A stretch of 64,000 bases of DNA from Limnomonas spitsbergensis (Eukaryota > Chlorophyta > Chlorophyceae > Chlamydomonadales). Positions 40,571-60,453 of this stretch are shown piece after piece. The stretch lies in contig JAYJMM010000019.1 of the NCBI GenBank assembly GCA_037349105.1, forward strand, positions 124,001 to 188,000. The letters are read 5' to 3'. A program made the position numbers and the translations under genes. The notes under the pieces were generated by a model that saw nothing but the letters and a program-made list of their open reading frames with translations, was not told the DNA's origin and searched no databases. Numbering within the stretch: the stretch's first letter is position 1; each line of letters begins with the position of its first letter.

Positions 40571-40794
40571 TGTCGCACCATAAAGCAGTAAACGCGCCAA
40601 TATGGTAAACTCCGTAATCTCCGGTAAAGGCGCCTTAGAGAGGTGTCCTTCTACTCACAAACAGGCTCCTTGTACTTCAGACAAGAGCTGTTAACTGGCT
40701 ACTGTAAGGTTCAGCCCTAGCAGGAAGTCTCTCTGCCTAGGGGTAAGTCTGGGTGTCCCTGTCTCGTGGGTACCGCCCCTACTACTTCACTCGC
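40571..40794 (-). repeat. Outer A repeat (B2 position of a split direct repeat)
   Basis: 224 bp, identical to 41421-41644 except for C/T near 40655/41505. It lies outside the 3' B repeat and forms the 3' terminus of the element (minus strand ...GGTGCGACA). An ordinary LTR element would have host DNA here. Confidence 0.9.
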
Positions 40795-40796
40795 GT

Positions 40797-41418
40797 TGTG
40801 CGCTTCAGGTCCGTGGCGGACTTCTCCCTCACGACAGTGATGGGCGCCTACGGGCAGACTTCGTGACTACTCACTGGCTGCGGGTGCTCAACGAGTTAAG
40901 CCGCTAGATTTGTATTTGGATGTCAGGCAATAGCAAGGGTTGGCGCAGGCCTTCAGGCTGTCTGGTCGCGAACCAGCTGGGCAATCAGGTGCACTTACCG
41001 CGTCGCACGCGGTGAGGGTACGGGACCGTAGACTGCGAACTGCTTGTTCGGCAGGGATCTCGTTCCTCAACTGAGGTCTTGTTCTCTTGCTATCTCAGCG
41101 GAAGCTGAGGTAGTCTTGACTTGTTGTAGGTACTGACTTAAGGTACAACTCGGGTCTCACGCACTGGGTGACGGCCGGAGCTTGTTACAGTAGAGGTCTG
41201 TCCTTTTGAAAGGGACGAAGTAACTAGTTTAGACAATCGCCTGGATACAGGGACCCGGCAGGCCCAATTCAAAGTACGGGACAGCTAAACCCCTGGCGTA
41301 AGCGGGTTTCTAGGTTCCTATTCAAATAAGGAGGATCCGCAGGGAAGCTGCGAAGCCTCCGAGGTCGCAAACTGCGGCCTAAACGGTTTTGGCACGTATA
41401 CCGTAATATACCGTGACA
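40797..41418 (-). repeat. 3' B repeat (LTR-like, A2 position)
   Basis: 622 bp, minus strand TGTCACGG...GCGCACA, with TG...CA ends. It is the same as 59832-60453 apart from one base (A/G near 41232/60267). Minus-strand TGTAA at 41185-41189 is a likely poly(A) signal. Confidence 0.93.
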
Positions 41419-41420
41419 GC

Positions 41421-41644
41421 TGTCGCACCATAAAGCAGTAAACGCGCCAATATGGTAAACTCCGTAATCTCCGGTAAAGGCGCCTTAGAGAGGTGTCCTT
41501 CTACTTACAAACAGGCTCCTTGTACTTCAGACAAGAGCTGTTAACTGGCTACTGTAAGGTTCAGCCCTAGCAGGAAGTCTCTCTGCCTAGGGGTAAGTCT
41601 GGGTGTCCCTGTCTCGTGGGTACCGCCCCTACTACTTCACTCGC
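41421..41644 (-). repeat. Inner A' repeat (B1 position)
   Basis: 224 bp. On the minus strand it starts TGAAGTAGTAGGGG directly after the purine tract and abuts the 3' B repeat through a 2-bp GC spacer. The palindrome GACAGCTGTC spans the A'-B junction (41415-41424). Confidence 0.9.
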
Positions 41645-41657
41645 CCCCCCGCTCCTC
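41644..41657 (-). promoter_or_regulatory. Candidate polypurine tract
   Basis: The minus strand reads GAGGAGCGGGGGGGCGAG just before TGAAGTAG of A'. A purine tract here is where plus-strand synthesis starts in LTR elements, which implies that the replicative LTR begins with A'. A matching C-tract is present at the same place in the decayed copy (about 35339-35346). Confidence 0.65.
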
Positions 41658-41769
41658 AGCGTTAAGCCTATCGGGCATGCGCTAGGAGCCGGAAAAAGGG
41701 GTCGGTACTGTTAGGGAGAAATTTCTGGCAATATGTACACCTCAGAAGATCAAAGTATCAAAGCAAATC

Positions 41770-41935
41770 TGCCTGGTTCAGGCCTGCTACATGCATCTGC
41801 CTGGTTCAGGCTATATACATAAATCTGCCTGGTTCAGGCCGTCTACACGCGTCTGCCTGGTTCAGGCTGCACACACAAATCTGCCTGGTTCAGGCCGTCC
41901 AAACGCATCTGCCTGGTTCAGGCTTTCTTCAAAGC
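41770..41935. repeat. 28-bp tandem repeat (TCTGCCTGGTTCAGGC) in the 3' non-coding region
   Basis: Six copies of TCTGCCTGGTTCAGGCYG plus a variable ~10-bp tail. It lies in the element's 3' non-coding region (41658-42455), which otherwise holds no gene. Similarity to the decayed copy resumes at about 42060 ('CTCGCCCCACTGCGCC'). Confidence 0.85.
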
Positions 41936-42455: not shown

Positions 42456-45400
42456 TCAGGTATCGGTGCACCCTTCAAGTGCCGATTCCTCCTCCTCCTT
42501 CGCTGCTTCTTTGGCCACCTTGGCCCGTCTGGCAACTGCCCTCGGGGTGACATTGGCCTCTCCCCGGCCAGTGGTGTACGAGATGTCGTACAACCCGTTC
42601 GCCATTGGCCTTGCGATGCCCCGCTCCATTTGCCGCGTAGCTGGGTTGGTGGCCATAACCTCCACCTCAGGCCTATCCATGATGTCGGCATCCGGGGCCG
42701 CCCTGGCTGCTGCCCTGGCAGCTGGGCTTGGCCGCCCATGGACGGCTGTGCTGCGCTCTGGCTCTGCAGCGGGCCCTGCTATCTCAGCTGGCCCAGCGAC
42801 CTTGTCGCCCGGCTGGCACCGTGGGCACAACCAATCGCCCTCAGGCACCTCATCAAGAGCTGGTACCAAGCAATCCATGTGCCAACCCGCAACTGGCAGC
42901 GCCTCTTTGATCCTAGCCACTCTGGCCAGGAGTAGGTCCGCTGCCTCCTCTGCTGTTGCCACCTTGGCGGTGCTCCATAGGTCCGCCCCCACTCTGGAGG
43001 GGAACGTGGGTCGTTGCCCAAACAGGACCTCGTATGGCGCCATGCGCGTGGCCTGCTGCGGCGAGCAGCGGAAGCCCAGCGCCACCCATGGTACCATCTT
43101 GTCCCAGGACTCGTCGCTGCTGCCCTCCTGGCAGCACTTGCGCAGTCCTGTCTTGAGAGTCTGGACTGCCCTCTCTGACAGCCCGTCTGCCTGGGGATGA
43201 TTGGCAGAAGTGGTGCGGTGATCAATAAAGCAATCCAGTAACATGTCCTGGAATTCTCCCTGGAACTCTGTTCCCTGGTCAGTCACCACCTCTGCGCAGC
43301 CCCCGAAACGTGCTACCACATTCTGGAAAAAAGCCAAGGCCGTCACATCCGACGCCTTGCTTGGAATGGGGATTAACTCCACCCATTTGGAGTAATGCTC
43401 CACACACACCATCACAAATCGATTGCCCCTGGGCGTGGTGGTGAATGGTCCACACAGGTCCACTCCCCACCGGAAAAATAACCCCTCGATGGGCAGCGGA
43501 TGCAGGTCGGGCTGTATGTGATTGAATGTGGACGCCCTGGCCCGGTCACACACACCACACTCCTGCACCACCTTCCTGACTGCTGCCCTGAGCCCCCTCC
43601 ACCAGTGCTGCTGCATGACCATGAAAGCTGTGCGGTGGCTGCCAAAATGGCCCGTACCGGCATGGGCCTCCTGAATCACTGCCAGCCTGTCCTCTGGCCT
43701 GGGTACTACACATCGTCTTCCGTCAGGCATAAGCCGTATCAACACTCCACCCCTCTCTGATTCCCACAGGAAGGGAGCGGCTCTGCGCTGTACCCTTGCG
43801 TGCTCTCCTAGCTCCGTTCCTGGAGCGTGTATTTTCTCACGTAGGAATCTCAACACTGGCGCATCTGACCACACGTCCACCTTGGCTGGGGTCCCTGCCC
43901 CGAACCCAGGTGGATCACATTCTCCCCCACCGTCAGGGCTCTCAACACTGCCAGCATCTGCTTTGGCCACAGGTGTATTCCCACCTGGTTCCTGCGCTGC
44001 ATCTGCCCAATCTGCCGCAGCTGATTCTCCCAGGCACTGCCTGTACGTCGCTGCCACCTCCCCACTGCCAGAGCACGCGTTCCCTGCGGTAGCAAGGGCG
44101 TAGTGGCTGGACATTAAAGTGGCACCCAGCGCAGGATCCCTGTCCTGGCCTGGCAACCTTGCTCTGCGCACCAGTTCACCCGGTAATATTTTGGCACATT
44201 CAAGTGCCACATTGAACCATGCACTCAGTGCCCACGAATCCAAGCATCTGCCCAAGGCTGCCCTCCTGGCAGCCTCTGGGAAGTCTGGTCGCGGCAACGT
44301 GGAACCTACAGCATACCCCATAGCCCGTTCACGTTCATTGGCATTGGGCTCCTGCAGGTCCCCCATGGGCCTGTACACCATCCCATTCTGCCCATTCCTG
44401 AAAGAATATGACGCGGGAGTCGCCATCAAGCAGGGCAGCACCCTTCTGGGCTGTCCTGTCACATTGATGCGATACCCTCCATTGTCTGGACAGGCGACCA
44501 CCTGGGCCCTGCTGCCCTTGTCCAGAATATCATCCACGACCCCCTCATGGGGCCTGGCCGAAGCGCAAATCACAAACTCGATATCCTCAGACGGGGCTAT
44601 GTTCCCCCAGTAGTTGCGGGTACGGTGGGCGTAAGACCCCACCTGTGCCGCATCAAACAGTGCAGGCGTCCCCAGGACCCTACACACTTCATTGAACCCG
44701 TCTACACTGGCCTTGGTGCTCCTCTGATTCAGCTGCATCGCAACATTCTCAATCAGGTATGCGGGCGGTCTGGACAATTGCAGGACCTGCAAAGTGCCCA
44801 ACAACTTGAACAGCGGGAAGAAGGACTTGCTTCGTTCCCCCGCCAGCCCGCGCCCCTTGCCTGCCGAAGAGAGGTCCTGACACTCCCATCCAGCCACCAT
44901 AAACCACTGGCGCCCATCCTGGGCGCCTGCTCCCCGGAGGTGCTCTGCCGTAATGGCGTACACATCCTGGGGTAGCGCTCTGAACACATCCTCAAACGCT
45001 TTCACCGGAAGCAGCTGGGGAAATCGCTTGTGCAACTGCACCAAACGTCCTCCAGCAATCTCCCTCACTTCTTCGCTGATATCCGCATACAAATACCGAA
45101 CTACTGGAATTCCTGCTTTGAGCACCATTTCCAGCCCAGAGCACATACCTCCAAAGGGCTCAAAGAGGACCACCCCTTCCTTCTCCATGGTCCTCACAGC
45201 CTGTACCGGCAGGCACGCTGTGTCCACCCCTGCGTGTGCGTGAGGCGGTACAACCCGGGGCAGGTCAGACAGTACATCGCTGATCATTGTCCTGGCTCTG
45301 TCTCGGCCACTGAACGCCTGCTCTGCCGTACTGACAGGCTGAGCCTGCTCATCATCCTCAGTGGCGGCAGAGGATATCTCCTGCCCAACCACGCTTGTCG

Positions 45401-48400
45401 CACAAGCTGCCTCTGCAGCCCGCAACAGTTTCACTCCCCTTCGTCCTTCCTGTGCCATACGGACCAACTGGTCGGCATGCCACTGGTTCACCCTGTTCAT
45501 CCCTGTGAGCATGGCTACCTGCCTCCCACTCTCCTCCCCCCTGACCGCCGGCTCTGATGCAACCGCATCAAGCCTAGCTCCTGTGCGGTCAGCGGAGGAC
45601 GGGAGAGGCGACCTGGACGGAATGTCCGCATTCTGGTGGCATGCTCCAGAGCGGTGGACAATGGTAATGTCCAGCTCCTGGAGCATGAGTGCCCACCTAG
45701 CGTGCTGGCCCACTAGCGTCTGGTTGTCCATGAGGTAGGTCAGTGGCTCATGGTCAGTGATGAGGTGCACCTTGCACCCGAACAGCATGTGACGGTACGT
45801 GCGCGCGGCATACACTGCAGCCAGCATCTCCCCCTGAAATGAGGAGTAGTTCTTCTCACTCTTGTTCAGGGATCTGGACGTGCATGCAACCATATATTCA
45901 CGACCACTGTCATCGCACTGCCCTAGGACTGCTCCAATACCCTGCTTAGAGAAGTCAGTGTACAGCAAGAAGGGCCTTGGCGGTCCTTTGCCATCGGGCC
46001 CTGTTCCACTGTAATCCGGTCTGCGTAGGACCCTACCGCCCTCGCACATCTCCGTTTTGATCAGCTGGAACGCCTGCGACTGTTCTGGCCCCCACACAAA
46101 CGGGACCCCCTTGACCAGCAATGCATTGATGCATGCTGCCTTCTTGGAGAAATCCGGAATGTAGCAGCGGTAGAAGTTCAGGAAGCCCATGACTTCCTGA
46201 ATGTTCTTCACCGTTGCGGGCTCAGGCAGCGCCATAACCGCTGCAATCTTAGCAGCATGCGGCGTGAGACCCCGGGCCGACACGTTGTGACCCAGGTATT
46301 CCACCGTTGCACATCCAAACAACGACTTGTCGGGGTGTGCCCTTAACCCGACATTGTGGAGCATGTCCAGCATGAGTTCCACATGCTTGATGTGCTCTGC
46401 TGGTGTATCACTGTACACCAGCAGATCATCAATGAAAGCCACACAAAAGGAACTCAGGCCCGCTCTGGCGATCTCCTCTTCCATCATTCTCTGGAAGAAA
46501 GGAGGCCCATTGCGCAGCCCAAAATTGAGCTTGGTGTACATCCACAGCTCAGGTCCCATCCAGAATGCCGTCTTAGGCTGGTCCTCAGCTTTGATCGGTA
46601 TCTGCATGAACCCCGACCTGAGGTCCACCTTACTGAATATCTTGGCCGTACCCAGGTTCTGAAAAATTGTTTCCATCCTGGGGATGGCAAACTCCTGCTT
46701 AGCCGTACGCAGGTTCAACCTGCGCATATCGTGTGCTATGCGGTGATCAGTCCACTCGCCAGTCTCAGCGCTCTTCTTGGCCGCAACCACAGAGTTGGCT
46801 GCAAACTTGATGGGGCCCCCTTGGGGCACCTTCACAATGATACCTGCCTGTATCATCGGCTGGCACTTTTCTTTAAAGATGGCAGCCTTTGGAGGTGGCA
46901 TGTCCCGCGACTTCTGAAAGCACGAGCTGACCTCGTCTTCCAAAGCCAATGTAAACTCACCCTGCGTGCCGCAGTAGCCCGGCAGGTCTTCCATGGAGTA
47001 AGCGAATGCTCCCTGGCGGTCCCTGAGGCTCTGCTCGAGGGACGCCTGCTGCTCCTCCGTGAAGTCAGGGTGCTTGCCCAGCGGCCATCCTTCTTCAGTC
47101 TTGACATATTCCGAAGGTGGTTCAACCACACCTCCTGGCTGGAACATGTCGATCATCTCTGCCGCCTGCGGGTCGTCCACCGCTGCTGGTGCTTCTCCCT
47201 CGGTGCTGCTGTTGCGCTGCCAATCCTCCTGCTGGCTGTAGGCGCCCCCTGCCCCGCTGGCATCCCCCAAAGAGATGACAGCCGGCGGGCGCAGCCAGCC
47301 TGACGTAAGCTTTGCTGCCGCCTCCTGGCTGGACACAAAAGCACCCTGGCTGGCTGTAAATCCCCCTCCACGGACGCCCTGCTCAGTGGCCCTTGCACCC
47401 GGGATGCACGCTGACAGCAGTAGCCACACCAGCAACAGCTGGAATGCACCCGTAAGCATTCCCTTGAAAGCTGTACAGGTCAAGAGTCCCCTGCATGCTG
47501 GCGGCTGCCGCCCAGCAGGCGGCTGTTGCCCTGCTGGCTGCGCCAATAACGGTTCAGCATGTGGCCCTGGCCTCAACTGCTCTGTGGCCCATGTGATCTC
47601 CAGCTCCACCCGGCTGATCCTGCCTGGCTGGCAAGGGCAATCCCTGCCCGGCCTGCTGCCGCGATCCCTGTCTGCAGCCTTCCCCTGCGCCTTCCTTGCG
47701 CGGCGCATAGCCTTTTTTGACTTCTTCCCCTGAAGCTCGGCTGTTTCCGTCCAGGCTGCGTCGGCCCCTACTGGCCGCGCCTCTGACTGAAATCCCCTGT
47801 AGCGCTTGGCCTGCTGCCCCTGTTCGATTCTGTCTGCCCTGTCTGCTGGCAACTGCCGCCTTCTGATGGCTTCCAAGGGCGCGTCCCCGTATGGGCAGTC
47901 CTTGGTCTGGTGGCCAATCTGGGCGCAGATGAGGCACATGCCTGCCCTCTCCCCTGGGTCTGGGCAGGCGTGATAGTCGTGCCCATGCCTGCTGCTTCGC
48001 AGGCCTGGCTCCCCGGTAGCTGACCCACGGCCCCCGGCTGGATGCGCCAAGTCACTGCATTTATGGCATGCCCACACTCCTCTGCGGGTGCCGCCAATGC
48101 TCCTAGTGCCGGCACACGCCCCGCAGGCTGTACCGCCACACTTGCAGCACTTCCTGCCGGTCCCTTCCTCTAAGCTGACCATGCAGCCTAGGCACCGCTG
48201 GGGCATGTCTGCGACAATTCTGCCCGGTAGCTCCCTGCTGACTGTTATGCCGCTGGTTAGGCTGCAAGCTCCACGGGCTGCGCCTCTGCCCCGGATCTCT
48301 GGCCTGGGTGGGTGCCGCACTGGTGTCTGGCTGCTGGCGGGTCCTACCCGGCCCATGCCGCCTGCTGCTGCCTGTGCATCCCTGTCGCCCTGCTCATCGC

Positions 48401-51400: not shown

Positions 51401-54400
51401 CTGGCTGGCCCGGCGGCAGAGGCCTGGGCTGGACATGCTCCCTGTCGCTGGTTTGGTTGCGGTGGTCCTCACCGTCCTGGTCATAAGCTGTATCCTCGTC
51501 CCTTCCGGCGGACCGCCTGTCGCTAACACCCCTGCTGGGCGGGTTACTGGCCGCCTCCCCCCATCCTCCGGGGTTGTACCTGGAGGTGGTGCAGCAGTGG
51601 TTTCTAACGGGTTCCGCGCCACCCGAGCTCCTCGCTGCGGCTTCCTGCGCCTCTTGGTGGCGACCAGTCCTGCTGACTGACCCCTGAGCCCTGGCGGCTG
51701 CCTCGTTTGCCGCGCTTCCGATATGCAGCGGTACCTCAGGGGTGCCTGGGCATGGTAACACAGACCCTTGGTCAGGCATGGGAGTGTCCACTCGTGAATC
51801 TGACCCCCTATCGGAGCTGGCGGAGCCATCCTCACTGGGACTGGCCTCCCCCTCCTCATCATTGTACTGGTGCATTTCAGCCTGTGCTCCCCTGTTGGCT
51901 GCATTCATAGCATAGTGATCTGACTGCTCCTTGATCAGAAATCTCTGCAACATGTTGGGCCAATCCTCACAAGGGGCCGGGCACCCCCTGCTCTGGAGGT
52001 CCCTCAGGACCCACCCTGCATGATGGATGGACCTGGCTGATCCTGCGGGCATAGTGCCGTAATGGTTCATAGCCAACGACTCTATCACCACCTTCCAGTG
52101 GTGCTTCTGAAGGGGCACCTGCCCTTCTAGCATCCACTGGGTATCCCCCGGTACCTCTGCCACCTGGTTGCTCTGAACCTGGGCAGTGCCGGCGGTCTGA
52201 ACAACCCCCCCATGGATCGATACCAAACACGTGTGCCTTGCGGGGCCCTCCCACCTGGGTGCCTCTTGCATCACTGCGCCCTGTCGGCCCGGTGGCCCCG
52301 GCAGCCTGCTCTGGCTCGCAGCAGCCTTCTGCGCCTTCCACTCCTCGAAGGAGGTACGCTGCTCGGCCTCGTAGGCCCTCCTTAACCTGTCCTCTGGACC
52401 CTCCAGGCTGTGGCCTGGTCCATCAGCCCTCACACCCCTCTCTGGGCCGGCTGGGACCCTAGGCTTGTCCAAGCGGCCGCTGCTGCCCGCCATCACCGAC
52501 CTCCAGTCTGGGCATGCGCTGGCGAAGTGCCCTGGCTGATGGCACTTGAAACACACTCCTCCATCTCGGGGTCCCAGGTGGGCTGGCTTGGCTATCCGTC
52601 CCTGTCCAACCGTGGCCCTGCCCGGCGGACTTTGGTCAGCTGCCCTCCTCCTGTCTTGTTCTTGGTCGCCCTTTTTGAACGATCTGGCCAGGCTCCCTGA
52701 GCCTCGCTCTAGGGAACGGCCTCGGGGCATGCTGCCCCTCTGCTCTGGTCCTGGGCTCTCCTTCCTTGCATGGATACGCCTGTCGCTGTCCCCCTCACTC
52801 GGGGACTTGCGCCACCTGCCCTTGGCCTGTACATCGGCCGGGCTGCTATCTCCTGTGTTGTGCTCCGTCAGCTGGCTCTTGACCCCTGGCGTGGGAGCCA
52901 CCGCCTGGTGCTCCCTTACTTGCCCTCTTTGGGCGCTCCTGCTGCGCTCCCTGGGAGCCTTGTCCTCGGCCTCAGCTGCTGCCTCTGTCCCCCTCCGCTC
53001 CCTGCGGGCATCGGGACTAGCCATCTGAGCTCTGTTGGCGCCCCCTGAGTTGTTAAGCCCAGGGTTCCTCTGTTGTGCTTCCGCTGGTGCCGCCGTGCTG
53101 GGGGGCTCGACTTCCCCCTCCAGGTCGCTATCCCACGGGGATGCGGGCACAAACGCCTCCTGGATGCTGGCTGCCAGCTCCGGGTCCACTTGCACCCGGT
53201 TTTGCGGCCTTCCCGCCTGCAGGTCCCCAATGGCCTGATACAGGCCTGGCAGTTGGCCTGCCCGCAGAACATACTCCTTCTGTACTTCTGTCATGACGCT
53301 GTCCACTGACTTGATGTCATCCCACCTTGCCATCTGCAAGCGTAGGTACTGCACAAAAGCCGCGCTCTGTTGGTACAGCTGTACCTCCATGTCTTTCAAC
53401 GCCTTCTGCGCGAGCCGCTGCTGGGCGCGCAGCCTATCCAACTCTTTGGATGCCCTGCTGCGCAGCGCCCCCTGGGGTTCCGCCTCCCTTTCGCTGTCTT
53501 CCTCCTCCTCCTCATCCTGACTGCCGGACTGGCCCTGGCTGGGATCTGCTTTGTCACCCTGGGCTGCTGCGCCCTGCTCTGCAACTTCCACCTCCGGGGC
53601 GACAACCTTGTCAGCCTTCCGGGTACCTGGAGCTGGCCTGCCCCTGCAGACCTCTTGCTGCATGGATTTTGGCGCCTCTGCCCGCAGCCCTGACTTGCTG
53701 AGGTCCAGAACCCTGTTGTCACAGCATTCCGCTGTGTGCCACCCCTTTGCCCCGCACAAGGTGCACGGGTTCTCCTCGCTGGGTGGGTTGTTCCTCCTCA
53801 GGAACTCCTTCCTGACTACCGGCATGGTCGCTGCCGCGTGTGCTCTGCGGATGTTCTCCGCCATCTCTGCCGCGGCCTCCGCCTGCAGCTCTGCACGGCT
53901 TTGAGGTTCCTCCGCCTGTCTGCGCTCACGCCTTTCCTGAGGCGGCGCTGTTGCGGGTCCGCTCGGCACCTCCCTGTGCAGCCTCTGGGCGCCTCGCGCT
54001 TGCTGCGGCTTGCTGTTTTGCAGGGACGCCTCGTGAGGCTCTTCATAGTTTGCTGAAGCCTTCATGGCTGCACCTGCACGGTGGGCCATGGCATGTTGTA
54101 AGAGGGGCTCATGCTCGTCCTCGATACTGGCCTCAGGCCATCCTCCCCTTTCGGCGAATCCGCACTGGATCCCTGCCCACGCCACGGCTGCTGCCTGGTA
54201 TCCCCCCACTGGGGATGCCAGCTCCAGCGGCAGCGTAAGGTCCCTGGACCCGCGCGCCCCCTGGGCACCCTCTCTGGGGCGTAAGGTCAGCCTTCCTGCT
54301 GCCTCGAGGACTCCATCATATTTGAGAAACTCAGGGTTCCCCACCAGATGTTCATATGCGTCAGGCGGCGTTTTCACCACACGGACCACTGTGGGCTCCA

Positions 54401-56780
54401 TGATGGCGTTAGGCCCACCGTAACCATACACCACATAAATAAACAGGATACCATACAGGTCTGCCCCTGCATTGTCCGTGGTACGGATCTTCTCATCCGT
54501 ACGCACCAGCTCAGCGCCCATGGCCACTAGCTGTTCAGCAATGTTCACTGTGATAACATGGCAGGAGCAAGCAGAGTCCATCAGTGCTTTCTGAGCCACT
54601 AGGACCTTGCCCTTCACCATGAGACCCACACACTGCTCCAGGTTGCTCCTGTCGTTTCGGAAGTACTGCAGTTTTGGCGCTGCTGGCACCACCCTGTTCT
54701 CTTGCTTGCCCCTACTGGCCTCACCACGCTGGTCGGTTCCCATGGGTAAGGTAGCGCAAGAGAGTGACGACAACCTCTCGTTCAGCTTGAACACCTGCAG
54801 GCGGATATCAATCATATCGTCAGCCAATCTGCTCAACACCAGCCTCTTTTCTCCCTTCCTGGAGGCAGGTTCCCTGAGGCTCTGCTCAGGTTCCTCCTCC
54901 CTGAAAGGTTCTGGCAAGAATGACTTAGGGCGGGCATTGTGGACTGCCTGTTTAAATTCCACAGGCTTGGGCATCAGCCCAACCTGCGTCATTAGAGCCA
55001 CCGACTCGCTGAGCATCTCAGCCATCGTCTGGTGCCATCCCTCAGGCTCAGCCTGCCCTGTTGGGCTGGTCAGGTGCGACACATGTGCCGCCTGTTGCGC
55101 CTGACCACCCTGGCCTGGCCCTGGCCTTGGATACGGCCTGTTGCCCTGGTTCCGATCATACGGCCTGCCAGCCGCCTGTCCTTGCGGCGGCCTGGGCGGT
55201 AGAGGGTACTCCTGCGGCGGCGGTCTGGCCTGCCCAGTTGTTATGTCTGTAGCTAGCGGCGCTGGCCTGCGTTCATCCCTGCGCTCATCTCTGCGTTCAT
55301 CCCTGGCCCTGGGTACTCTGCAGTCCCTGGCCAGGTGCGCTGTGCTACCACACTGGTAACACGCCTTGGGTACCCCCATAGCGCTCCCTGCGCTGTTGTT
55401 CTGCGCTGCGGGTTGGTCTGCCCAGGAAACTCCTCTGGGTTTACCCTCACTCCGCTGTGGCTGTGCTGCAACTGGGCCTGCGGGGATTACTGCCCCGTCT
55501 AGGCGAGCCCGCATCTCCCACTGTCCAGTCCGCTCTCTCCTTCCTTTGTTGTACTGCGCCTCGCCCTGGCCAAGTCCACTGCTGGCCACCTGCCTCAGGC
55601 TTGCTCCTCCTAGGTCCCCCATTTCTAGGGCGAACTTCTCCCACAGCACCACCTGCTGAGTCAGCACTGTGATCTGGTCTTCATCCGTCATACTCAGGTA
55701 CCCTGGCACTGTGACGACGAACTCGCTGAGCTTTGCTTTTGTAGCTGCTGGCAGCCCGTCATGAAACATGTGCGAGACTGAGTGTCGCCTGCCAAAGTGG
55801 TCCACTGCATCCCTCGAGATCTGCAGCAACTGCGCTGTTGACAGTACTCTGTGAGCAAACGCCTCCACAGTCTCCTCTGACTTAACTTCCGGATCAAGAG
55901 TGGTCTTCACTCCCAACCTGAGGTTGGAGATAGCTGTCCTCTCCTCTGAGGTTGGCTTCCCCACCTCCGCCTGCACCACCCTGATCCACAGGGTGAGCAG
56001 CGACGTCTCTTGGCACTGCTCCTTCACTGGGGCAGTCCACAGATCCCTGATCTTGTCCACCTCTCTGGCAGCCCTTTCTCCTGCGTGGGGCGCTGCCCTG
56101 ATGGCCAACATCAGCGGCCCTACACACGCAGGCTTGCTGTCCCACAGCTTGACCAGTGACTTCACCAGCATAGCCATAGCTGATGGCGATTGGCACGATC
56201 CTGTAATCTCCCCTGCTACCACCGCCAGTGCTGGCGGTTCATCTGACAGTGCCAGTCTGTTGTGTGAACCCCAGTAGCCACAAGCTTGGCAATACGTCCT
56301 GGCTGCAACCGCGCCCGGGTGCGACATGTCCAGCACCGGCACATTGCCTTGGATAGTGGGAATCTTGGCAAATTTGGCGACGCCTACCAACTGCGAGATC
56401 ATCTGCTGCTGCAGCTGCAGGTTGTTCCTTGCCTGCTCCCACTCGAGCCTTCTCATTTCCTGGTCACCTAACTCCCGCCTGGCCCCTGGCCCGCGCCTGT
56501 CTGCTCTAGCTGACCCTGAATCCTCTGATCCAGAGTGTGATCCAGATCCATCTCCGCCGCCCCCTGATGGGTTGCGATCCTGCTGGTATCCACTGTGTCT
56601 GATATCTGGCTCCTCCTGAGCATGGTTCTCTCCAGACGGTCGTCTGCCTGCCCTGCCTGCTGAGTCTCTGCTTCCTGCAGGTGGCGGCCACCCCGCCTCA
56701 CTTCTACTATGCTGCTCCACAGGTCTGGATCTCCAGGGCTGCGCTCCTTTGTCCGATTCTGCCTGCCCCCTGGGCGGTCC
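42456..56780 (-). CDS. Giant polyprotein: Gag, zinc knuckles, protease, RT-RNase H, cytosine methyltransferase, integrase, half PHD
   Basis: This frame is open from the TAG at 56781-56783 to TGA at 42456. It continues the frame of 56784-59123, so a separate start is not needed (the codon at 56720 is GTG, not ATG). Approximate positions counted from 56720: Gag capsid-like 100-400; CCHC knuckle 'CYQCGSTAHLARDC' 454; protease-like 'ALMDSACSCHVI' 712; further knuckles near 990 ('CTLCGAKGWHTAEC'), 1390 ('CFKCHQPGHFASAC') and 2930 ('CLICAQIGHQTKDC'); a Cys-rich zinc module 2842-2890; an unknown folded-looking region 1750-2150; a hydrophobic segment 'FQLLLVWLLLSACIPGA' near 3100; RT 3200-3500; RNase H 3580-3690; methyltransferase 3850-4170; integrase 4350-4610; half PHD finger and basic tail to 4754. 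At 4,754 codons it is several times a normal Ty3 polyprotein. Confidence 0.93.
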   Translation of the reverse strand, partial: GPPRGQAESDKGAQPWRSRPVEQHSRSEAGWPPPAGSRDSAGRAGRRPSGENHAQEEPDIRHSGYQQDRNPSGGGGDGSGSHSGSEDSGSARADRRGPGARRELGDQEMRRLEWEQARNNLQLQQQMISQLVGVAKFAKIPTIQGNVPVLDMSHPGAVAARTYCQACGYWGSHNRLALSDEPPALAVVAGEITGSCQSPSAMAMLVKSLVKLWDSKPACVGPLMLAIRAAPHAGERAAREVDKIRDLWTAPVKEQCQETSLLTLWIRVVQAEVGKPTSEERTAISNLRLGVKTTLDPEVKSEETVEAFAHRVLSTAQLLQISRDAVDHFGRRHSVSHMFHDGLPAATKAKLSEFVVTVPGYLSMTDEDQITVLTQQVVLWEKFALEMGDLGGASLRQVASSGLGQGEAQYNKGRRERTGQWEMRARLDGAVIPAGPVAAQPQRSEGKPRGVSWADQPAAQNNSAGSAMGVPKACYQCGSTAHLARDCRVPRARDERRDERRDERRPAPLATDITTGQARPPPQEYPLPPRPPQGQAAGRPYDRNQGNRPYPRPGPGQGGQAQQAAHVSHLTSPTGQAEPEGWHQTMAEMLSESVALMTQVGLMPKPVEFKQAVHNARPKSFLPEPFREEEPEQSLREPASRKGEKRLVLSRLADDMIDIRLQVFKLNERLSSLSCATLPMGTDQRGEASRGKQENRVVPAAPKLQYFRNDRSNLEQCVGLMVKGKVLVAQKALMDSACSCHVITVNIAEQLVAMGAELVRTDEKIRTTDNAGADLYGILFIYVVYGYGGPNAIMEPTVVRVVKTPPDAYEHLVGNPEFLKYDGVLEAAGRLTLRPREGAQGARGSRDLTLPLELASPVGGYQAAAVAWAGIQCGFAERGGWPEASIEDEHEPLLQHAMAHRAGAAMKASANYEEPHEASLQNSKPQQARGAQRLHREVPSGPATAPPQERRERRQAEEPQSRAELQAEAAAEMAENIRRAHAAATMPVVRKEFLRRNNPPSEENPCTLCGAKGWHTAECCDNRVLDLSKSGLRAEAPKSMQQEVCRGRPAPGTRKADKVVAPEVEVAEQGAAAQGDKADPSQGQSGSQDEEEEEDSEREAEPQGALRSRASKELDRLRAQQRLAQKALKDMEVQLYQQSAAFVQYLRLQMARWDDIKSVDSVMTEVQKEYVLRAGQLPGLYQAIGDLQAGRPQNRVQVDPELAASIQEAFVPASPWDSDLEGEVEPPSTAAPAEAQQRNPGLNNSGGANRAQMASPDARRERRGTEAAAEAEDKAPRERSRSAQRGQVREHQAVAPTPGVKSQLTEHNTGDSSPADVQAKGRWRKSPSEGDSDRRIHARKESPGPEQRGSMPRGRSLERGSGSLARSFKKGDQEQDRRRAADQSPPGRATVGQGRIAKPAHLGPRDGGVCFKCHQPGHFASACPDWRSVMAGSSGRLDKPRVPAGPERGVRADGPGHSLEGPEDRLRRAYEAEQRTSFEEWKAQKAAASQSRLPGPPGRQGAVMQEAPRWEGPARHTCLVSIHGGVVQTAGTAQVQSNQVAEVPGDTQWMLEGQVPLQKHHWKVVIESLAMNHYGTMPAGSARSIHHAGWVLRDLQSRGCPAPCEDWPNMLQRFLIKEQSDHYAMNAANRGAQAEMHQYNDEEGEASPSEDGSASSDRGSDSRVDTPMPDQGSVLPCPGTPEVPLHIGSAANEAAARAQGSVSRTGRHQEAQEAAARSSGGAEPVRNHCCTTSRYNPGGWGEAASNPPSRGVSDRRSAGRDEDTAYDQDGEDHRNQTSDREHVQPRPLPPGQPEGRSFVQWYRLGDELPGSAATEAMLTVPEDAQDGICRIQNHRLLPSREVVCVNRQAAMQAVARLVFPWDAVTAVLLIVALKGYIKPSTVMAELMQREWRHPVWLQCVDRAVRLVCQEGTTAVSAADMARWEVPDSVRTDGVWQGAQLGFMSAPWAQHCAHSLLGHPSLRECAFYVPVQAVAAGTYGRSSEAAEGTYDDAGLCHGGKPRRIEDIIEAAILIPRVVAGQAVPWGLAPGDARAAIPVQRTVSYYYEEVQEEEIPVSEAWIHMHASRNDMPVFFFARSEGNVAIVRCANVEEAEFHAHEYARGKDPAVWAIMMMVLQRTMLPGQMSAAMQEVWSVGAQWAPAEFECPTWPYGARPASDSGSMWEGEFELARSPFALERLEDCVQQWVRKERKAWQEDRASSVTPHWQANAVTVQLWKQAHPAGVRTLHPLFRGVGSGTYEEELMELRDQPALGQWRIGRWGARRWDPNPDSSEGSQESSEQPGPCVPFQAAFVTTLGATASEWVWLAIDQELAAPSAETRDRAESRTPSGSCGGTSVPKDNSERRLIAGHPATRNQGFSKGEDPGQWGTSLPGGEKEDPLEGLPPLVADSESDEEYGASSPQLPVGVISIGWPVARSADMPGESASAYPGPECPEQSFEESMEQLQQRWMSNGSWERAAIEETRRNREWEVELGEHLPALRKNRRHAAVLPMAASLVTAEARPDSNRSRDRQMNEPVQPVARDPWGDPASYSTQRWKSALGNCLERLDQQRREEMGLYETGQELVNSSAAVAWSSMWFKIRALPGQSPDPRMWQYNQALEDLERELGVSMIALIDEVSPAVTAHWQTCLEERSDGDSSAGEGLDDARAQSDSQLEGLRIARHILQYQLRKAEGTAVEPEEDDTGTIAIHLSMMTGLLEGAGLLEVGLQAAIRQLQTGLARRLRQLRGAAKWASGRGPEQAALVYADDIYLNLRVVRCQLAEWVSTREGQGVLWRPSNTPGLMCIQGAETDSASSGDEQGDRDAQAAAGGMGRVGPASSQTPVRHPPRPEIRGRGAARGACSLTSGITVSRELPGRIVADMPQRCLGCMVSLEEGTGRKCCKCGGTACGACAGTRSIGGTRRGVWACHKCSDLAHPAGGRGSATGEPGLRSSRHGHDYHACPDPGERAGMCLICAQIGHQTKDCPYGDAPLEAIRRRQLPADRADRIEQGQQAKRYRGFQSEARPVGADAAWTETAELQGKKSKKAMRRARKAQGKAADRDRGSRPGRDCPCQPGRISRVELEITWATEQLRPGPHAEPLLAQPAGQQPPAGRQPPACRGLLTCTAFKGMLTGAFQLLLVWLLLSACIPGARATEQGVRGGGFTASQGAFVSSQEAAAKLTSGWLRPPAVISLGDASGAGGAYSQQEDWQRNSSTEGEAPAAVDDPQAAEMIDMFQPGGVVEPPSEYVKTEEGWPLGKHPDFTEEQQASLEQSLRDRQGAFAYSMEDLPGYCGTQGEFTLALEDEVSSCFQKSRDMPPPKAAIFKEKCQPMIQAGIIVKVPQGGPIKFAANSVVAAKKSAETGEWTDHRIAHDMRRLNLRTAKQEFAIPRMETIFQNLGTAKIFSKVDLRSGFMQIPIKAEDQPKTAFWMGPELWMYTKLNFGLRNGPPFFQRMMEEEIARAGLSSFCVAFIDDLLVYSDTPAEHIKHVELMLDMLHNVGLRAHPDKSLFGCATVEYLGHNVSARGLTPHAAKIAAVMALPEPATVKNIQEVMGFLNFYRCYIPDFSKKAACINALLVKGVPFVWGPEQSQAFQLIKTEMCEGGRVLRRPDYSGTGPDGKGPPRPFLLYTDFSKQGIGAVLGQCDDSGREYMVACTSRSLNKSEKNYSSFQGEMLAAVYAARTYRHMLFGCKVHLITDHEPLTYLMDNQTLVGQHARWALMLQELDITIVHRSGACHQNADIPSRSPLPSSADRTGARLDAVASEPAVRGEESGRQVAMLTGMNRVNQWHADQLVRMAQEGRRGVKLLRAAEAACATSVVGQEISSAATEDDEQAQPVSTAEQAFSGRDRARTMISDVLSDLPRVVPPHAHAGVDTACLPVQAVRTMEKEGVVLFEPFGGMCSGLEMVLKAGIPVVRYLYADISEEVREIAGGRLVQLHKRFPQLLPVKAFEDVFRALPQDVYAITAEHLRGAGAQDGRQWFMVAGWECQDLSSAGKGRGLAGERSKSFFPLFKLLGTLQVLQLSRPPAYLIENVAMQLNQRSTKASVDGFNEVCRVLGTPALFDAAQVGSYAHRTRNYWGNIAPSEDIEFVICASARPHEGVVDDILDKGSRAQVVACPDNGGYRINVTGQPRRVLPCLMATPASYSFRNGQNGMVYRPMGDLQEPNANERERAMGYAVGSTLPRPDFPEAARRAALGRCLDSWALSAWFNVALECAKILPGELVRRARLPGQDRDPALGATLMSSHYALATAGNACSGSGEVAATYRQCLGESAAADWADAAQEPGGNTPVAKADAGSVESPDGGGECDPPGFGAGTPAKVDVWSDAPVLRFLREKIHAPGTELGEHARVQRRAAPFLWESERGGVLIRLMPDGRRCVVPRPEDRLAVIQEAHAGTGHFGSHRTAFMVMQQHWWRGLRAAVRKVVQECGVCDRARASTFNHIQPDLHPLPIEGLFFRWGVDLCGPFTTTPRGNRFVMVCVEHYSKWVELIPIPSKASDVTALAFFQNVVARFGGCAEVVTDQGTEFQGEFQDMLLDCFIDHRTTSANHPQADGLSERAVQTLKTGLRKCCQEGSSDESWDKMVPWVALGFRCSPQQATRMAPYEVLFGQRPTFPSRVGADLWSTAKVATAEEAADLLLARVARIKEALPVAGWHMDCLVPALDEVPEGDWLCPRCQPGDKVAGPAEIAGPAAEPERSTAVHGRPSPAARAAARAAPDADIMDRPEVEVMATNPATRQMERGIARPMANGLYDISYTTGRGEANVTPRAVARRAKVAKEAAKEEEESALEGCTDT
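42885..43690 (-). other. Ty3-type DDE integrase domain
   Basis: The zinc region HHCC is 'HAGTGHFGSH' to 'ECGVC'. The core has 'WGVDLCGPFTTTPRGNRF' (Asp), 'VTDQGTEFQGEF' (Asp) and 'NHPQADGLSERAVQTLK' (Glu), all intact. The normal basic linker is missing: the frame jumps from 'RIKEALPVAG' to 'WHMDCLVPALDEVPEGDW', the second half of a PHD finger. Confidence 0.95.
44180..45173 (-). other. C5-cytosine DNA methyltransferase domain inside the polyprotein
   Basis: Motifs in order: I 'VVLFEPFGGMCSGLEMVL' (S-adenosylmethionine binding), IV 'GWECQDLSSAGKGRGL' (catalytic Cys, with Glu in place of the usual Pro), VI 'AYLIENVAMQL' (ENV), VIII 'AQVGSYAHRTRNYWGN' and a C-terminal 'ERERAMGYAVGSTLP' to 'ALGRCLDSWALSAWF' resembling motifs IX-X. 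The domain spans about 320 residues and sits between RNase H and integrase in an unbroken frame. It would transfer methyl groups to cytosine in DNA, possibly to the element's own cDNA or to its target. The Pro-to-Glu change beside the catalytic Cys also occurs in the decayed copy, so it is a lineage trait. Confidence 0.85.
45620..47120 (-). other. Ty3-type reverse transcriptase and RNase H domains
   Basis: The RT shows 'FSKVDLRSGFMQIP' (first catalytic Asp), 'FGLRNGPPFFQRMM' and 'FCVAFIDDLLVYSD' (catalytic Asp pair in FIDD), followed by 'LGHNVSARGLTPHAAKI' and 'VMGFLNFYRCYIPDFS'. RNase H follows with 'FLLYTDFSKQGIGAVLG' (Asp), 'GEMLAAVYAARTYRHML' (Glu) and 'HLITDHEPLTYL' (Asp). All catalytic acidic residues are present, so both enzymes look functional. 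Strength and order of motifs assign the element to Ty3/gypsy rather than DIRS or Copia. Confidence 0.95.
54540..54600 (-). other. Aspartic-protease-like active site in the polyprotein
   Basis: The segment 'ALMDSACSCHVITVNIAEQL' has the position and surroundings of a retropepsin active site (D-S/T-G-A/C), but the glycine is Ala. It lies after the Gag zinc knuckle, as expected. Activity is uncertain. Confidence 0.55.
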
Positions 56781-57060
56781 CTAGTTTTGCCAACTTTGCT
56801 GCGCTGATCCGTTGTTTCCAGCCTGCCCCCTGGGCGGCTCCTGGCCCTGCCAGTTTTGCTGCGCTGATTCACTGTTTCCAGCCTGCCCCCTGGGCAGCTC
56901 CTGGCCCTGCCAGTTTTGCTGCGCTGATTCGCTGTTCCCAGCCTGCCCCCTGGGCGGCTCCTGGCCCTGCCAGTTTTGCTGCGCTGATTCGCTGTTTCCA
57001 GCCTGCCCCTTGGGCGGCTCCTGGCCCTGCCAGTTTCGCTGATCCGTGCCGTCTGCCTGC
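56757..57060 (-). repeat. 60-bp coding tandem repeat in the polyprotein (20-aa units)
   Basis: Five to six units encode SAQQNWQGQEPPRGQAGNSE with small changes. The last unit carries the in-frame TAG. Weaker related units extend to about 57200. Confidence 0.9.
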
Positions 57061-59123
57061 CCCCTGGGCGGCCCTCGGTTCTGCCGGTCATGTTGCTCTC
57101 TGCTGCCTGCCTGCTCCCTGGGCAGCTCCTGGCTGTATCCACCTGGCTGTTCTGTACTGCCTGCCTGCCCCCTGGGCGGCGCCTGGTACTGCCTGCCTGG
57201 CTGTGTTCCACCAGTATAGTCTCTGGCGTAGGAGTCTGAACGCGTCTCCTCCCTGGCCTCCTGCCTTCTGGGTCCGCTGCTCCTGGTGCTGCCTGCAGGT
57301 TCAACTTCCTGCAGGGTCCTCCTTGCTGGTCCCACTTGTCTGTTCCTCAAGAACTCCTCGATGTGGTCCACTTGCACCTCTTGGCAAATATTCTCCTTGC
57401 CCTCCACTATGCGCAACAGCGCATATGACTCCTGTCTGCTGGCTCTGCGCGTGTCTACGCCTTGCTCTGCCATCCTGGCGAGCGATCGGCTAGTCAGCTC
57501 TGCCCTTTCACTGGCAGCTGGGCTGCTGGCCCTGGGTGCTTCCCCGCCTCTCGGCCGCCCCCTGAGGCTCGGCTCACTGCTGATCTCAAAAACTTCTGAT
57601 CTGGGTATCGGCGTTGGCGCGGCCCTTGCCTGCTGCTGCCACCTTTGGACCTCTCTGAGTTCCTCAGGCCGCTGCGCCACTGTTTCAAATCCTTCCCAAT
57701 CTTGATTCTCCTCGTCCTCAGGCTCAGATCCAGGTTCCTCCTGATCTCCTGTCACGCCGTTACACCATTCGTCTGCGAAGGTCTTAACAGCCAGGGCCGC
57801 TTCGTGCTCCGCCCCTCCCTTGGACACCTGTCCAAGGGCGGCTAACAACGTCGCCCTGTCCTGGCCTGTATGGGGGATACCCATCATGGCCTTTGTCGCC
57901 CACTCCCTCAGGTGATGGGCCTTGAACTCCTCAATTGCTGTGACCTGGTCACTGAAATGAGCAAACGTCCTGGAGCAAATCTGCTTCCACAGGTGCGTTG
58001 CCCACAGCAAGATTCTTGCCCAGCCAAACGGCTGCGGCTGTTCCTCTATTGCCTCTTCCACCTTCACCACAGTCCTGGCTCTGGATCTCTCTGGATCTCC
58101 TGAGCTTTCCTCCTGTGCCCAAGCTGGGTTGTGGAAGAATCCATACAGGCTGTCCTTCTTGCTGGTGCCTGTCCGGAACCTGCTGTCCGCTTCTGCCTTG
58201 GATCGCTGCGCCGGTTTACCCACACTGGGTGGAAACCTGGACAGTGGTGTCCCGTAGGCCGTGGAACCTGCTCCTCTTCTAAACAGCATTCTGCGCTGTC
58301 GCAGCTGCTGCACAGGCCTCATCCCTGCCTTGGATCGCTGCACCCTTTCCTCCTGGGCTGGATCTGACATCTCCTCCTCGGATATCAAGTCAGCCCAAGG
58401 CTTTCCCACCGGCACCGCTGAATTTTTAAATGCTGCCAGCGGCTCTGCATTGTCCTGCCAAGCCTGCCTGGCCACCGCTGGCTGGGCACCTGCCCCCTCG
58501 CGCTTGACCACTGCAGGCACTTGCCTGCTTCCCATGTCCTTTCCACCTGGCTGTAATTTGTCATGGCCTGCTAGCCCCTCTGGGTTTGCAGCGCTCTCTG
58601 AACTGTGTTCTGGCTGGCAGGGTTCTACCAATACTCGCTGCGCAACCCTCGCCCCCTTGGACGGAATCCGTTGCGGCGCGGCATCTGGTTCGCTGGTTCG
58701 CTGGTTCGCTGGTTCGCTGTCACGTCGTATGCTGCTGCTCTGGGACACCTCAGCCACCTGATCCAAGATCAGATCCGGGGTTCCCGCCTGCGTCGGACCC
58801 TGCTCAAATTCCAGGCTGCTCCTGGAATCCGCAGGCAGTGGGCCTCCTCGCCCAATGCCTGTCCTTATTACACACACAGCGCCACCGTCCAGCATTCCTG
58901 CCGCTCCGGGCAGGAAGTGGTCAGGTCCTGTCACCTTGCAGGCCCGTGCGGCCGGATCCACTGGCCTTGCCAGTTTCTCCGCCATCCGCAGGGCTTCCTC
59001 TGCAATCAGCGAATCAGCCACCTCTATCGAGTCTGCACCTGGCTCCAGCCCCCGTACTCGCCCGCTGCGGCGCTGGACGTCGGGGTGCTGGTGCCTATCA
59101 GGATGCAGGTTTATCTCTGCCAT
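56781..59123 (-). CDS. N-terminal part of the retroelement polyprotein (~780 aa), ending at an in-frame TAG
   Basis: The first ATG is 59121-59123 (MAEINLHPDRHQ). The product is charged and rich in Gln, Arg and Glu. It has a possible helical region 'FGWARILLWATHLWKQ' to 'KTFADEWCNGV' (residues about 345-460), then a Gln/Gly/Pro-rich low-complexity tail ending in 20-residue repeats. The TAG at 56781-56783 falls inside the last repeat, where other copies have CAG-containing sequence (Q-G-Q-E), and the same frame continues for 4,765 more sense codons. The stop may be a mutation of this copy or a programmed readthrough site (context TAG-G). No known domain is recognised; it precedes the Gag capsid-like region. 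Confidence 0.8.
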   Translation of the reverse strand: MAEINLHPDRHQHPDVQRRSGRVRGLEPGADSIEVADSLIAEEALRMAEKLARPVDPAARACKVTGPDHFLPGAAGMLDGGAVCVIRTGIGRGGPLPADSRSSLEFEQGPTQAGTPDLILDQVAEVSQSSSIRRDSEPANQRTSEPDAAPQRIPSKGARVAQRVLVEPCQPEHSSESAANPEGLAGHDKLQPGGKDMGSRQVPAVVKREGAGAQPAVARQAWQDNAEPLAAFKNSAVPVGKPWADLISEEEMSDPAQEERVQRSKAGMRPVQQLRQRRMLFRRGAGSTAYGTPLSRFPPSVGKPAQRSKAEADSRFRTGTSKKDSLYGFFHNPAWAQEESSGDPERSRARTVVKVEEAIEEQPQPFGWARILLWATHLWKQICSRTFAHFSDQVTAIEEFKAHHLREWATKAMMGIPHTGQDRATLLAALGQVSKGGAEHEAALAVKTFADEWCNGVTGDQEEPGSEPEDEENQDWEGFETVAQRPEELREVQRWQQQARAAPTPIPRSEVFEISSEPSLRGRPRGGEAPRASSPAASERAELTSRSLARMAEQGVDTRRASRQESYALLRIVEGKENICQEVQVDHIEEFLRNRQVGPARRTLQEVEPAGSTRSSGPRRQEAREETRSDSYARDYTGGTQPGRQYQAPPRGQAGSTEQPGGYSQELPREQAGSREQHDRQNRGPPRGQADGTDQRNWQGQEPPKGQAGNSESAQQNWQGQEPPRGQAGNSESAQQNWQGQELPRGQAGNSESAQQNWQGQEPPRGQAGNNGSAQQSWQN

Positions 59124-59802
59124 TCCTACAGGCAATTTATACGATCCACACGATCCTGCAATGTGCTGGCAACACCAAAACAGGATCTGCTAACGCTCAG
59201 GCTTCTGCCTCTTGCACCTACTGCAGCCTGGTGAGGACTTGCCAGTCAGGTCAAGTTGACAGGTACAGCAAAAAACAGGACAGGTCTCTCCCTTCCTGCT
59301 TTTTCTTGCTAATAATCAGAATCTGGCGGGATCCTCCGTCGCCTTCAGCACTTCCCACCTCTTTCTGGCTGGGTGGCTTCTAGAAGTCGCACGCCCTGCG
59401 TGGATGGGGCTTCTTGCTTGGTACCCGCTCTGCTCTGCGGTCCTGCGGGGATGCTTTGGCCCACCAAGAAAATTTTAACCTTGGATCTTCTATCCACAAG
59501 TTAACTTCTGTCAATGATGACAGATTGGATCCACCTGATCACAATCTTCAATCACACAGGTAAAATTGCTGGGTGTATAAATCCACAGCCAATTCTTCAA
59601 GCCTCTCCTGGACCCAGCACTGTGTTGCCACACACAGTGATTCACAGGGCTTAACTTGGCAATCTCGCTCTGGAGATTACCTCAGCCAAATTGCAGTTCA
59701 AGCGCCAAATTCCAGGCTGTTTGCTGACAAGCAAAATTCAAATTTTTCGCAGCACAAATACCTTCTGCAGGAACTGGCAAATCAGGCTGATCAGGCTCAA
59801 TC
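59124..59802 (-). other. Untranslated leader of the retroelement
   Basis: About 680 nt between the candidate primer site and the first ATG. No conserved domain or long frame; it presumably holds packaging and translation signals, none of which I can identify. Confidence 0.6.
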
Positions 59803-59826
59803 TACTTCGTCCCTTTCAAAAGGACA
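59803..59826 (-). promoter_or_regulatory. Candidate self-priming primer-binding site
   Basis: These 24 bases, five bases inside the end of the 5' B' repeat, are the exact reverse complement of 60234-60257 within the same repeat (and of 41199-41222). Retroelement primer sites lie in this position. No match to a tRNA 3' end (usual TGG start) is seen. Complementarity to the repeat suggests that the transcript's own 5' region folds back as primer, as in self-priming Tf1/sushi elements. Confidence 0.6.
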
Positions 59827-59831
59827 CGCGT

Positions 59832-60453
59832 TGTGCGCTTCAGGTCCGTGGCGGACTTCTCCCTCACGACAGTGATGGGCGCCTACGGGCAGACTTCGTG
59901 ACTACTCACTGGCTGCGGGTGCTCAACGAGTTAAGCCGCTAGATTTGTATTTGGATGTCAGGCAATAGCAAGGGTTGGCGCAGGCCTTCAGGCTGTCTGG
60001 TCGCGAACCAGCTGGGCAATCAGGTGCACTTACCGCGTCGCACGCGGTGAGGGTACGGGACCGTAGACTGCGAACTGCTTGTTCGGCAGGGATCTCGTTC
60101 CTCAACTGAGGTCTTGTTCTCTTGCTATCTCAGCGGAAGCTGAGGTAGTCTTGACTTGTTGTAGGTACTGACTTAAGGTACAACTCGGGTCTCACGCACT
60201 GGGTGACGGCCGGAGCTTGTTACAGTAGAGGTCTGTCCTTTTGAAAGGGACGAAGTAACTAGTTTAGGCAATCGCCTGGATACAGGGACCCGGCAGGCCC
60301 AATTCAAAGTACGGGACAGCTAAACCCCTGGCGTAAGCGGGTTTCTAGGTTCCTATTCAAATAAGGAGGATCCGCAGGGAAGCTGCGAAGCCTCCGAGGT
60401 CGCAAACTGCGGCCTAAACGGTTTTGGCACGTATACCGTAATATACCGTGACA
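59832..60453 (-). repeat. 5' B' repeat (LTR-like, A1 position)
   Basis: 622 bp, minus strand TGTCACGG...GCGCACA, matching 40797-41418 with one difference. Under the self-priming model the transcript would start near 60257. Minus-strand TGTAA at 60220-60224 lies about 33 nt downstream of that point, giving a short R region. There is no A repeat on its outer side. Confidence 0.93.
60220..60224 (-). terminator. TGTAA poly(A) signal in the 5' repeat
   Basis: TGTAA is the common poly(A) signal of chlorophycean algae. Because the CAF-1 gene reads in the same direction and its stop is at 60517, this signal, about 293 nt downstream, could end CAF-1 transcripts. No TGTAA is present between the stop codon and the element. 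Confidence 0.4.

Follow-up and report, generated by a model that had tools for sequence, protein, structure and literature searches.

A giant Ty3/Gypsy-type retrotransposon with split direct repeats in the green alga Limnomonas spitsbergensis and its probable integration from a circular form

How can a retrotransposon with a Ty3-type DDE integrase carry the repeat order of elements that use a tyrosine recombinase? This question is raised by an element of about 19.9 kb in the green alga Limnomonas spitsbergensis, which occupies positions 40571-60453 of a 64,000-nucleotide stretch of contig JAYJMM010000019.1 (positions 124,001 to 188,000, assembly GCA_037349105.1); this whole stretch is referred to here as the window. 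Split direct repeats have been described for the tyrosine-recombinase elements PAT, Ngaro and Viper (PMC4157794). A preliminary description of the window had proposed that the integrated form equals a circle with two long terminal repeats (LTRs) that was opened inside one LTR. The copies surveyed in the genome point the same way, and we consider it very likely that this giant Ty3/Gypsy-type element integrates from a circular form, by way of self-primed reverse transcription, an end-joined circle, cutting of a palindrome and integration.

Layout and borders of the element

The plus-strand order is A-B-GC-A'-internal-B', and the minus strand is the coding strand. The borders and repeats, in window coordinates, are as follows.

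40567-40570, no strand: left copy (TATG) of the target-site duplication (TSD)
40571-40791, minus strand: outer A, with the outer terminus TGT/ACA and, by the LTR that the polypurine tract (PPT) defines, the start of U3; the match extends to 40794 through a shared CGC
40791-40794, no strand: variable A-B join, U5 end to U3 start, read as the circle junction
40792-41418, minus strand: B segment adjoining the join
41415-41424, no strand: 10-bp perfect palindrome GACAGCTGTC containing the GC spacer (41419-41420), the proposed integrase cleavage site ACA^GC^TGT
41421-41641, minus strand: internal A'
41642-41657, minus strand: PPT, GAGGAGCGGGGGGGCG on the minus strand, directly before A'
59803-59826, minus strand: primer-binding site of 24 nt, a perfect inverse complement of 60234-60257 in B' and a candidate for self-priming
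59827-60453, minus strand: B', with the other terminus TGT/ACA
60234-60257, minus strand: segment of B' complementary to the primer-binding site, the putative RNA 5' end, followed on the coding strand by TGTAA
60454-60457, no strand: right copy (TATG) of the TSD

Self-comparison of the window recovered the A and B direct repeats and the minus-strand order B', open reading frames (ORFs), A', B and A at the places given in the preliminary description. The segment sizes given there need correction, as B measures 627 bp rather than 622 and A 221 bp rather than 224; the last bases of A are ...CACT, and the next CGC is common to both partners of the A-B join. The claim of a single base difference within each pair is borne out (1 mismatch in 221 positions between A and A', and 1 in 627 between B and B'), and so is the view that a TATG repeat marks the ends B'...A, since TATG flanks both termini (TGT...ACA). 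The PPT and the primer-binding site, with an interior of about 18 kb between them, define an LTR of the form a-GC-b on the coding strand, whose outer ends are AGTGAAG... (start of a) and ...CACAACGCG (end of b in the window copy). It is evident that these two outer ends of the LTR are fused to each other within the insertion. The dinucleotide GC, which separates B from A' and which the preliminary description did not mention, is missing at the outer ends; it is lost at the integrated ends and retained at the uncut internal site, as cutting at the palindrome predicts.

The enzymes are of the Ty3 type, as had been proposed. Reverse transcriptase, RNase H and integrase domains lie in this order, that of Ty3/Gypsy elements, in a minus-strand frame of 4754 aa, and the integrase retains D, D and E at the places aligned with the integrases of Ty3 and prototype foamy virus (PFV), which we take to be its catalytic residues. 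No tyrosine-recombinase family was matched in this frame (searched by pieces), in the second large frame of 784 aa or in eight other element frames of at least 200 aa, which agrees with the earlier statement that none is seen; the genome was not searched for such an enzyme in trans.

Copies, target duplications and empty sites

The genome surveyed is that containing the window (260 Mb in 124 contigs). The B-GC-A' junction occurs in it 1019 times with at most 2 mismatches, and the reversed control pattern 0 times; among the matches listed, the spacer as judged by eye is GC at all places but one. We assembled 38 paired copies, for which both ends are available: E1-E36, picked by the proximity of left and right ends in the match lists while the flanks (except those of E1) were still unseen, and one copy each on contigs C120 and C76, added once the pattern was known. 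An exact 4-bp TSD lies directly outside TGT...ACA in 37 of the 38, the exception being E18. The full plan A-B-GC-A'...B' is present in 27 of the 38, and 26 of these 27 carry matching TSDs. The remaining paired copies have longer A-B arrays at the start (2/38; E12 and E23), a single A-internal-B unit (5/38; E11, E14, E17, E28 and E33, with only the last part of B' recognisable in E28), A joined to truncated or foreign material (3/38; E10, E26 and E31) or an incomplete structure (1/38; E30). Among six solo-like A-B copies, four show a 4-bp duplication and two (L102 and L108) show none, and the duplication is found in both of two short truncated copies. Solos S1-S4 were picked where two outer ends lie close together, and a check across all the loci taken added the two solo-like copies lacking a TSD, together with one false match inside E6.

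Complete LTRs of A plus B on both sides, which the preliminary description had named as the state that would speak against its reading if most copies showed it, are not what most copies have, as 27 of 38 are split. Of 680 exact B starts, the first 100 listed were classed by what precedes them, which is the primer-binding site in 53, A in 47 and host DNA in 0; no conventional LTR insertion, with complete identical LTRs at both ends, was found among them. This list follows contig order and is not random, it includes segmental duplicates (for example on C24), and the exact pattern covers only the subfamilies with that B start; the list of A ends used below (first 100 of 276) is limited likewise.

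Three insertions offer empty sites. The full-plan copies E21 and E9 and the solo S4 are inserted in sequence related to the element interior, and the interior of the window copy is uninterrupted there. These unfilled counterparts in the window show the target bases once (with one base different in E21 and in E9) and hold no A segment, the other point on which the preliminary description had staked its reading. A fourth match, for E6, has diverged so far that it is at most suggestive, and an empty site for the window insertion itself was not found.

Some loci show further rearrangement. A-B arrays reach six units at L075 (C94) and five at E23 (C116), perhaps from unequal exchange after insertion. 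At G000:C112 (about 605000-641000), three starts of the element, spaced at 17.1 kb and with the same upstream base, suggest that an entire element was duplicated in tandem. At L077 (G000:C84:144000-150500), two A-B units lie about 3.5 kb from each other.

Priming, the variable join and integration from a circle

The 22-24 nt adjoining B' are the inverse complement of a segment that lies 407 bases into B'. In a comparison of 35 of the 36 copies (E28, with no primer site at its right end, was left out), this complementarity over 22 nt is perfect in 27 and has one mismatch in the other 8. Moreover, the two partners co-vary, both carrying the same change in E12 and in E18/E29/E30. On the coding strand of all 35 copies, the B' segment is followed within 40 nt by TGTAA, the usual poly(A) signal of these algae. 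We infer that the RNA 5' end would act as its own primer on the primer-binding site. With the RNA placed inside b'...b, the outer a would thus not be copied into RNA and would be made anew in each cycle. Self-primed Ty3-type elements of the Tf1/sushi group have an RNA 5' end complementary to the primer-binding site, and the algal element, with its predicted 5' end, would resemble them; the pairing differs in length, with the first 11 RNA bases in Tf1 and 22-24 nt here (PMC7175516).

The segments differ in how constant their borders are. The 100 listed of 276 A ends comprise 56 that face the PPT, 36 A-B joins and 8 others. The A'-PPT border is regular in 53 of the 56, and the inner borders of A' and B' are almost constant; the outer A-B join differs by 0-3 nt, and once by 9. 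Among the 36 joins the insert is none in 16, A in 11, T in 3 and CA in 2, with one each of ACA, TT, G and TGAAGGACA. Read outward from B, the inserts A, CA and ACA agree with the part of the primer site next to B (GGACA before B), and the 9-nt insert terminates in AAGGACA. The A, CA and ACA inserts are as expected if the primer had been incompletely removed, the lone A being weak evidence, and T, TT and G look untemplated. Leftovers of a primer copy together with untemplated bases would be the pattern expected from the joining of the ends of reverse transcripts. In the whole genome, 272 A-B joins lie within 2 mismatches of one form alone.

In four copies (E10, E31, C29short and C41short), A stops at most 3 nt from its U3 start and runs into internal sequence of the same orientation with a stretch missing, and these copies keep B' and a 4-bp duplication. 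This is as expected of cDNA (complementary DNA) that lacked its 3' part, was circularised and was opened at its single a^GC^b site. In E26, A is followed by about 340 bp that cannot be aligned to the window B and that contain their own GTGACAGCTGTCGCAC motif. Four of the 8 A-end rows outside the two main classes are E26, E31, C29short and C41short, and in the row of L090 the distance from A to a diverged B exceeds that in its relatives by about 120 bp. At L091 (G000:C40:18200-20600) and at a like site (C40:176215), a duplicated locus, a 17-bp A-end piece lies inverted between B and internal sequence, perhaps through self-integration.

In the proposed pathway, the RNA would start in B' and end in B just past the TGTAA signal, and its 5' end would fold back onto the primer-binding site beside B' and prime reverse transcription as in Tf1, as the observed complementarity suggests. 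Ordinary reverse transcription would give linear DNA with an LTR a-GC-b at both ends, from the start next to the PPT to the end next to the primer site, if the borders are read correctly. The two linear ends would be joined with small errors into a two-LTR circle, of which the join is visible in the insertions. The DDE integrase would ignore the joined ends and cut the palindrome ACA^GC^TGT inside one LTR on both strands, leaving 3' CA ends with 2-nt 5' GC overhangs, in the same geometry as after normal 3' processing; the termini, the loss of GC and the TSDs are consistent with such a cut. Insertion of these ends with the observed 4-bp duplication would produce b'-internal-a'-GC-b-a, the split direct repeat. 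Beyond the repeat order, the opening of a two-LTR circle inside one LTR, as the preliminary description had it, also explains the variable join, the primer-site bases there and the joining of A to truncated cDNA.

A related enzyme is able to act in this way. PFV integrase cuts the two-LTR palindrome next to CA on both strands, with 2-nt 5' overhangs, and the products were called indistinguishable from those of 3' processing; the palindrome is the LTR-LTR join there, whereas the algal element carries it within the LTR, and the join stays behind in the insertion as a by-product (PMC1180852). HIV offers a parallel to the action of PFV integrase on two-LTR circles (PMC4372172). It appears that evidence for a split plan arising through a DDE integrase that opens an end-joined circle is new, and no description of circle integration by a Gypsy element was found in the literature searched (mostly titles and abstract openings, with few subscription papers). 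Panganiban and Temin reportedly proposed a similar circle pathway for retroviruses in 1984, which is said to have been set aside later for them. We further think it rather likely that the element stands for a DDE-integrase family in which a closed two-LTR circle is the normal, possibly obligate, integration precursor and the attachment site lies inside the LTR.

Several observations weigh against integration from a circle. All the evidence comes from integrated copies, from which the circle, the RNA ends and the cutting by integrase are inferred. The TSD is lacking in E18 and in two of the six solo-like copies (L102, and L108 with a B end that is only a weak match), and the single-unit copies (5/38) and the solos can arise by recombination after insertion. 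The A-end row C22:438289 is unexplained, and two rows from the duplicated C40 site are inverted oddities. In an identity table of A and B covering 26 of the 27 copies with at least 2 LTR units (E2 was left out), the B of a copy is closest, or equally close, to the B' of the same copy in 25 of 26, a point in favour of the circle. For A and A' this holds in only 18 of 26, because A is almost invariant between copies. The join type matches that of the nearest relative in 16 of 26; chance agreement is likely since the join with no insert is the commonest, and the figure neither proves nor excludes some inheritance of joins.

The same final sequence and a variable join would also be reached without a circle, if linear cDNAs were concatemerised end to end or if the integrase cut linear cDNA in the 5' LTR and the freed a piece became ligated onto the opposite end ahead of insertion. 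The five A-internal-B copies could then be linear DNA cut at both internal sites. This course requires an additional ligation of the released end piece or intermolecular joining, and the joins of A to truncated internal DNA in the same orientation (E10, E31, C29short and C41short) are most simply explained by intramolecular closure; we regard it as unlikely. A split repeat that is inherited as a unit and regenerated by template switching, as proposed for DIRS/PAT, with differences at the join as ordinary mutations, would suit the 16 of 26 copies that share the join type of their nearest relative and the single join found per A-B array (the same in both units seen of E12, in both of E23 and in the six of C94). 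Against it, close relatives differ at the join (CA in E23 and none in E25, which have 5 differences over B' and A' together), several inserts agree with bases of the primer site, A is joined to truncated internal DNA in some copies, and TGTAA lies in B ahead of A on the coding strand in 35 of 35 copies, where it would stop the RNA before the outer A. Such inheritance is thus very improbable.

A tyrosine recombinase encoded elsewhere could integrate the circle as in PAT/Ngaro; the repeat plan is identical to that of PAT elements (PMC4157794), and chlorophytes have PAT-like families (PMC3266345). The element encodes a DDE integrase of its own, however, and the exact 4-bp TSDs in 37 of 38 copies stand against the integration of DIRS1-like elements, described as giving no target duplication (PMC3266345). 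The TSDs therefore already largely refute an enzyme in trans, which we hold to be extremely unlikely. There is hardly any chance of an assembly error, or of an old A fragment beside a conventional element. For an error there is only the general caution over repeats in assemblies; the 1019 junctions and the 27 separate full-plan copies, 26 with matching TSDs, speak against both. The outer A as an old neighbouring segment is rejected by the TSDs and by the empty sites lacking A, in agreement with the preliminary description.

Comparison with known elements, coding frames and neighbouring sequence

PAT-like, Toc3, Kangaroo and Ngaro elements, with green-algal members, have the same A1-ORF-B1-A2-B2 split direct repeats but use a tyrosine recombinase (PMC4157794), whereas the algal element has a DDE integrase, a 4-bp TSD and TG...CA ends. 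The methyltransferase of DIRS elements is Dam-like (PMC5890265), and that of the algal element is C5-cytosine methyltransferase-like. Of the features by which Ty3/Gypsy elements are recognised, TG...CA termini with a target duplication of 4-6 bp (PMC12440569) are present, with 4 bp; complete identical LTRs at both ends, with PPT and primer-binding site just inside, are not, as 27 of 38 copies are split. Closest by description is KnitGypsy-Dnmt3 of Klebsormidium nitens, with Gypsy domains, a Dnmt3 domain inserted in Pol and repeats called the same as those of a DIRS retrotransposon (PMC5890265, legend to Fig. 4). The algal element agrees with that description in its Gypsy Pol, inserted Dnmt3-type domain and DIRS-like repeat order. 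Gypsy domains with DIRS-like repeats are therefore not a new combination: the structure that the preliminary description took as unusual is real, and it had already been reported. A search of the main text of that report found no mention of a circular form, a palindrome or a TSD, except for one TSD of another element (PMC5890265).

The split-direct-repeat plan is thus suggested not to be a mark of tyrosine recombinases, and elements classed by their repeats alone may belong elsewhere. TOC1 of Chlamydomonas reinhardtii, for which a literature search gave nothing usable, may be such a case; its repeats, of roughly 220 and 600 bp, come close to A and B in size and have an unusual arrangement, and it is not known to carry pol genes. 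Tf1 has conventional LTRs. If a circle is indeed the precursor, the split direct repeat would mark the opening of a circle, whichever enzyme had done it, and Gypsy-type ancestors of this kind may have passed the circle step on to the tyrosine-recombinase elements that share these repeats. Retroviral two-LTR circles were long regarded as dead ends; in 1987 linear DNA proved active in the integration of Moloney murine leukemia virus (Mo-MLV) (PMC11054761), and later work on HIV brought circles back as a reserve supply (PMC4372172). The 272 A-B joins look like preserved circle junctions, and the use of circles could therefore be studied in an ordinary alga, with the variable joins naturally recording the way in which the ends of retroelement cDNA arise and are linked.

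The coding features of the window copy are listed below.

42456-56720, minus strand: open frame of 4754 aa, gag-pol type (domain search by pieces)
55317-55364, minus strand: CCHC zinc knuckle, weak, below the curated cutoff
52509-52556, minus strand: second weak CCHC zinc knuckle
46281-46745, minus strand: reverse transcriptase domain (PF00078, E 3.7e-23)
45675-45980, minus strand: RNase H domain (PF17917, E 3.3e-30)
44595-44969, minus strand: C5-cytosine methyltransferase-like domain (sequence matches to solved structures are to DNMT3 proteins, best E 1e-6)
43194-43694, minus strand: integrase H2C2 zinc finger and rve DDE core (aligned to the Ty3 and PFV enzymes)
42816-42884, minus strand: PHD finger, second half only (weak Pfam match)
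56781-59135, minus strand: upstream open frame of 784 aa, no Pfam match

The methyltransferase-like domain sits between RNase H and integrase, and nine related proteins that were aligned have the same domain order, with a degenerate methyltransferase in some. Its motif reads ECQ in the window element and in 6 of the 9 aligned relatives, and PCQ, the usual form, in one; ENV is retained in the window element. By alignment, the window copy lacks about 130 aa that the relative P0001 has between the integrase core and the PHD finger, a gap that the preliminary description did not mention, and its DNA diverges from two near-identical copies from about position 42887; the window copy itself is therefore probably impaired. 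Named relatives among the 120 listed of 434 related proteins come from Haematococcus lacustris, Monoraphidium neglectum, Pleodorina starrii and Chlamydomonas reinhardtii, and no relative was matched in a viral contig collection queried with P0001. Short tandem repeats of about 54-60 bp lie at 56761-57193, at the border of the two large frames.

Elsewhere in the window, positions 1-18822 form a tandem array with a unit of 2.45 kb (about 7.7 copies, 96.7-98.3% alike in self-comparison), and beside it several satellite-like arrays of short period are found at 21166-26229. A remnant of a related element lies at 36034-38971; its parts 36814-38971 and 36034-36252 resemble 42885-45064 (76% alike) and 42501-42719 (83% alike), respectively.

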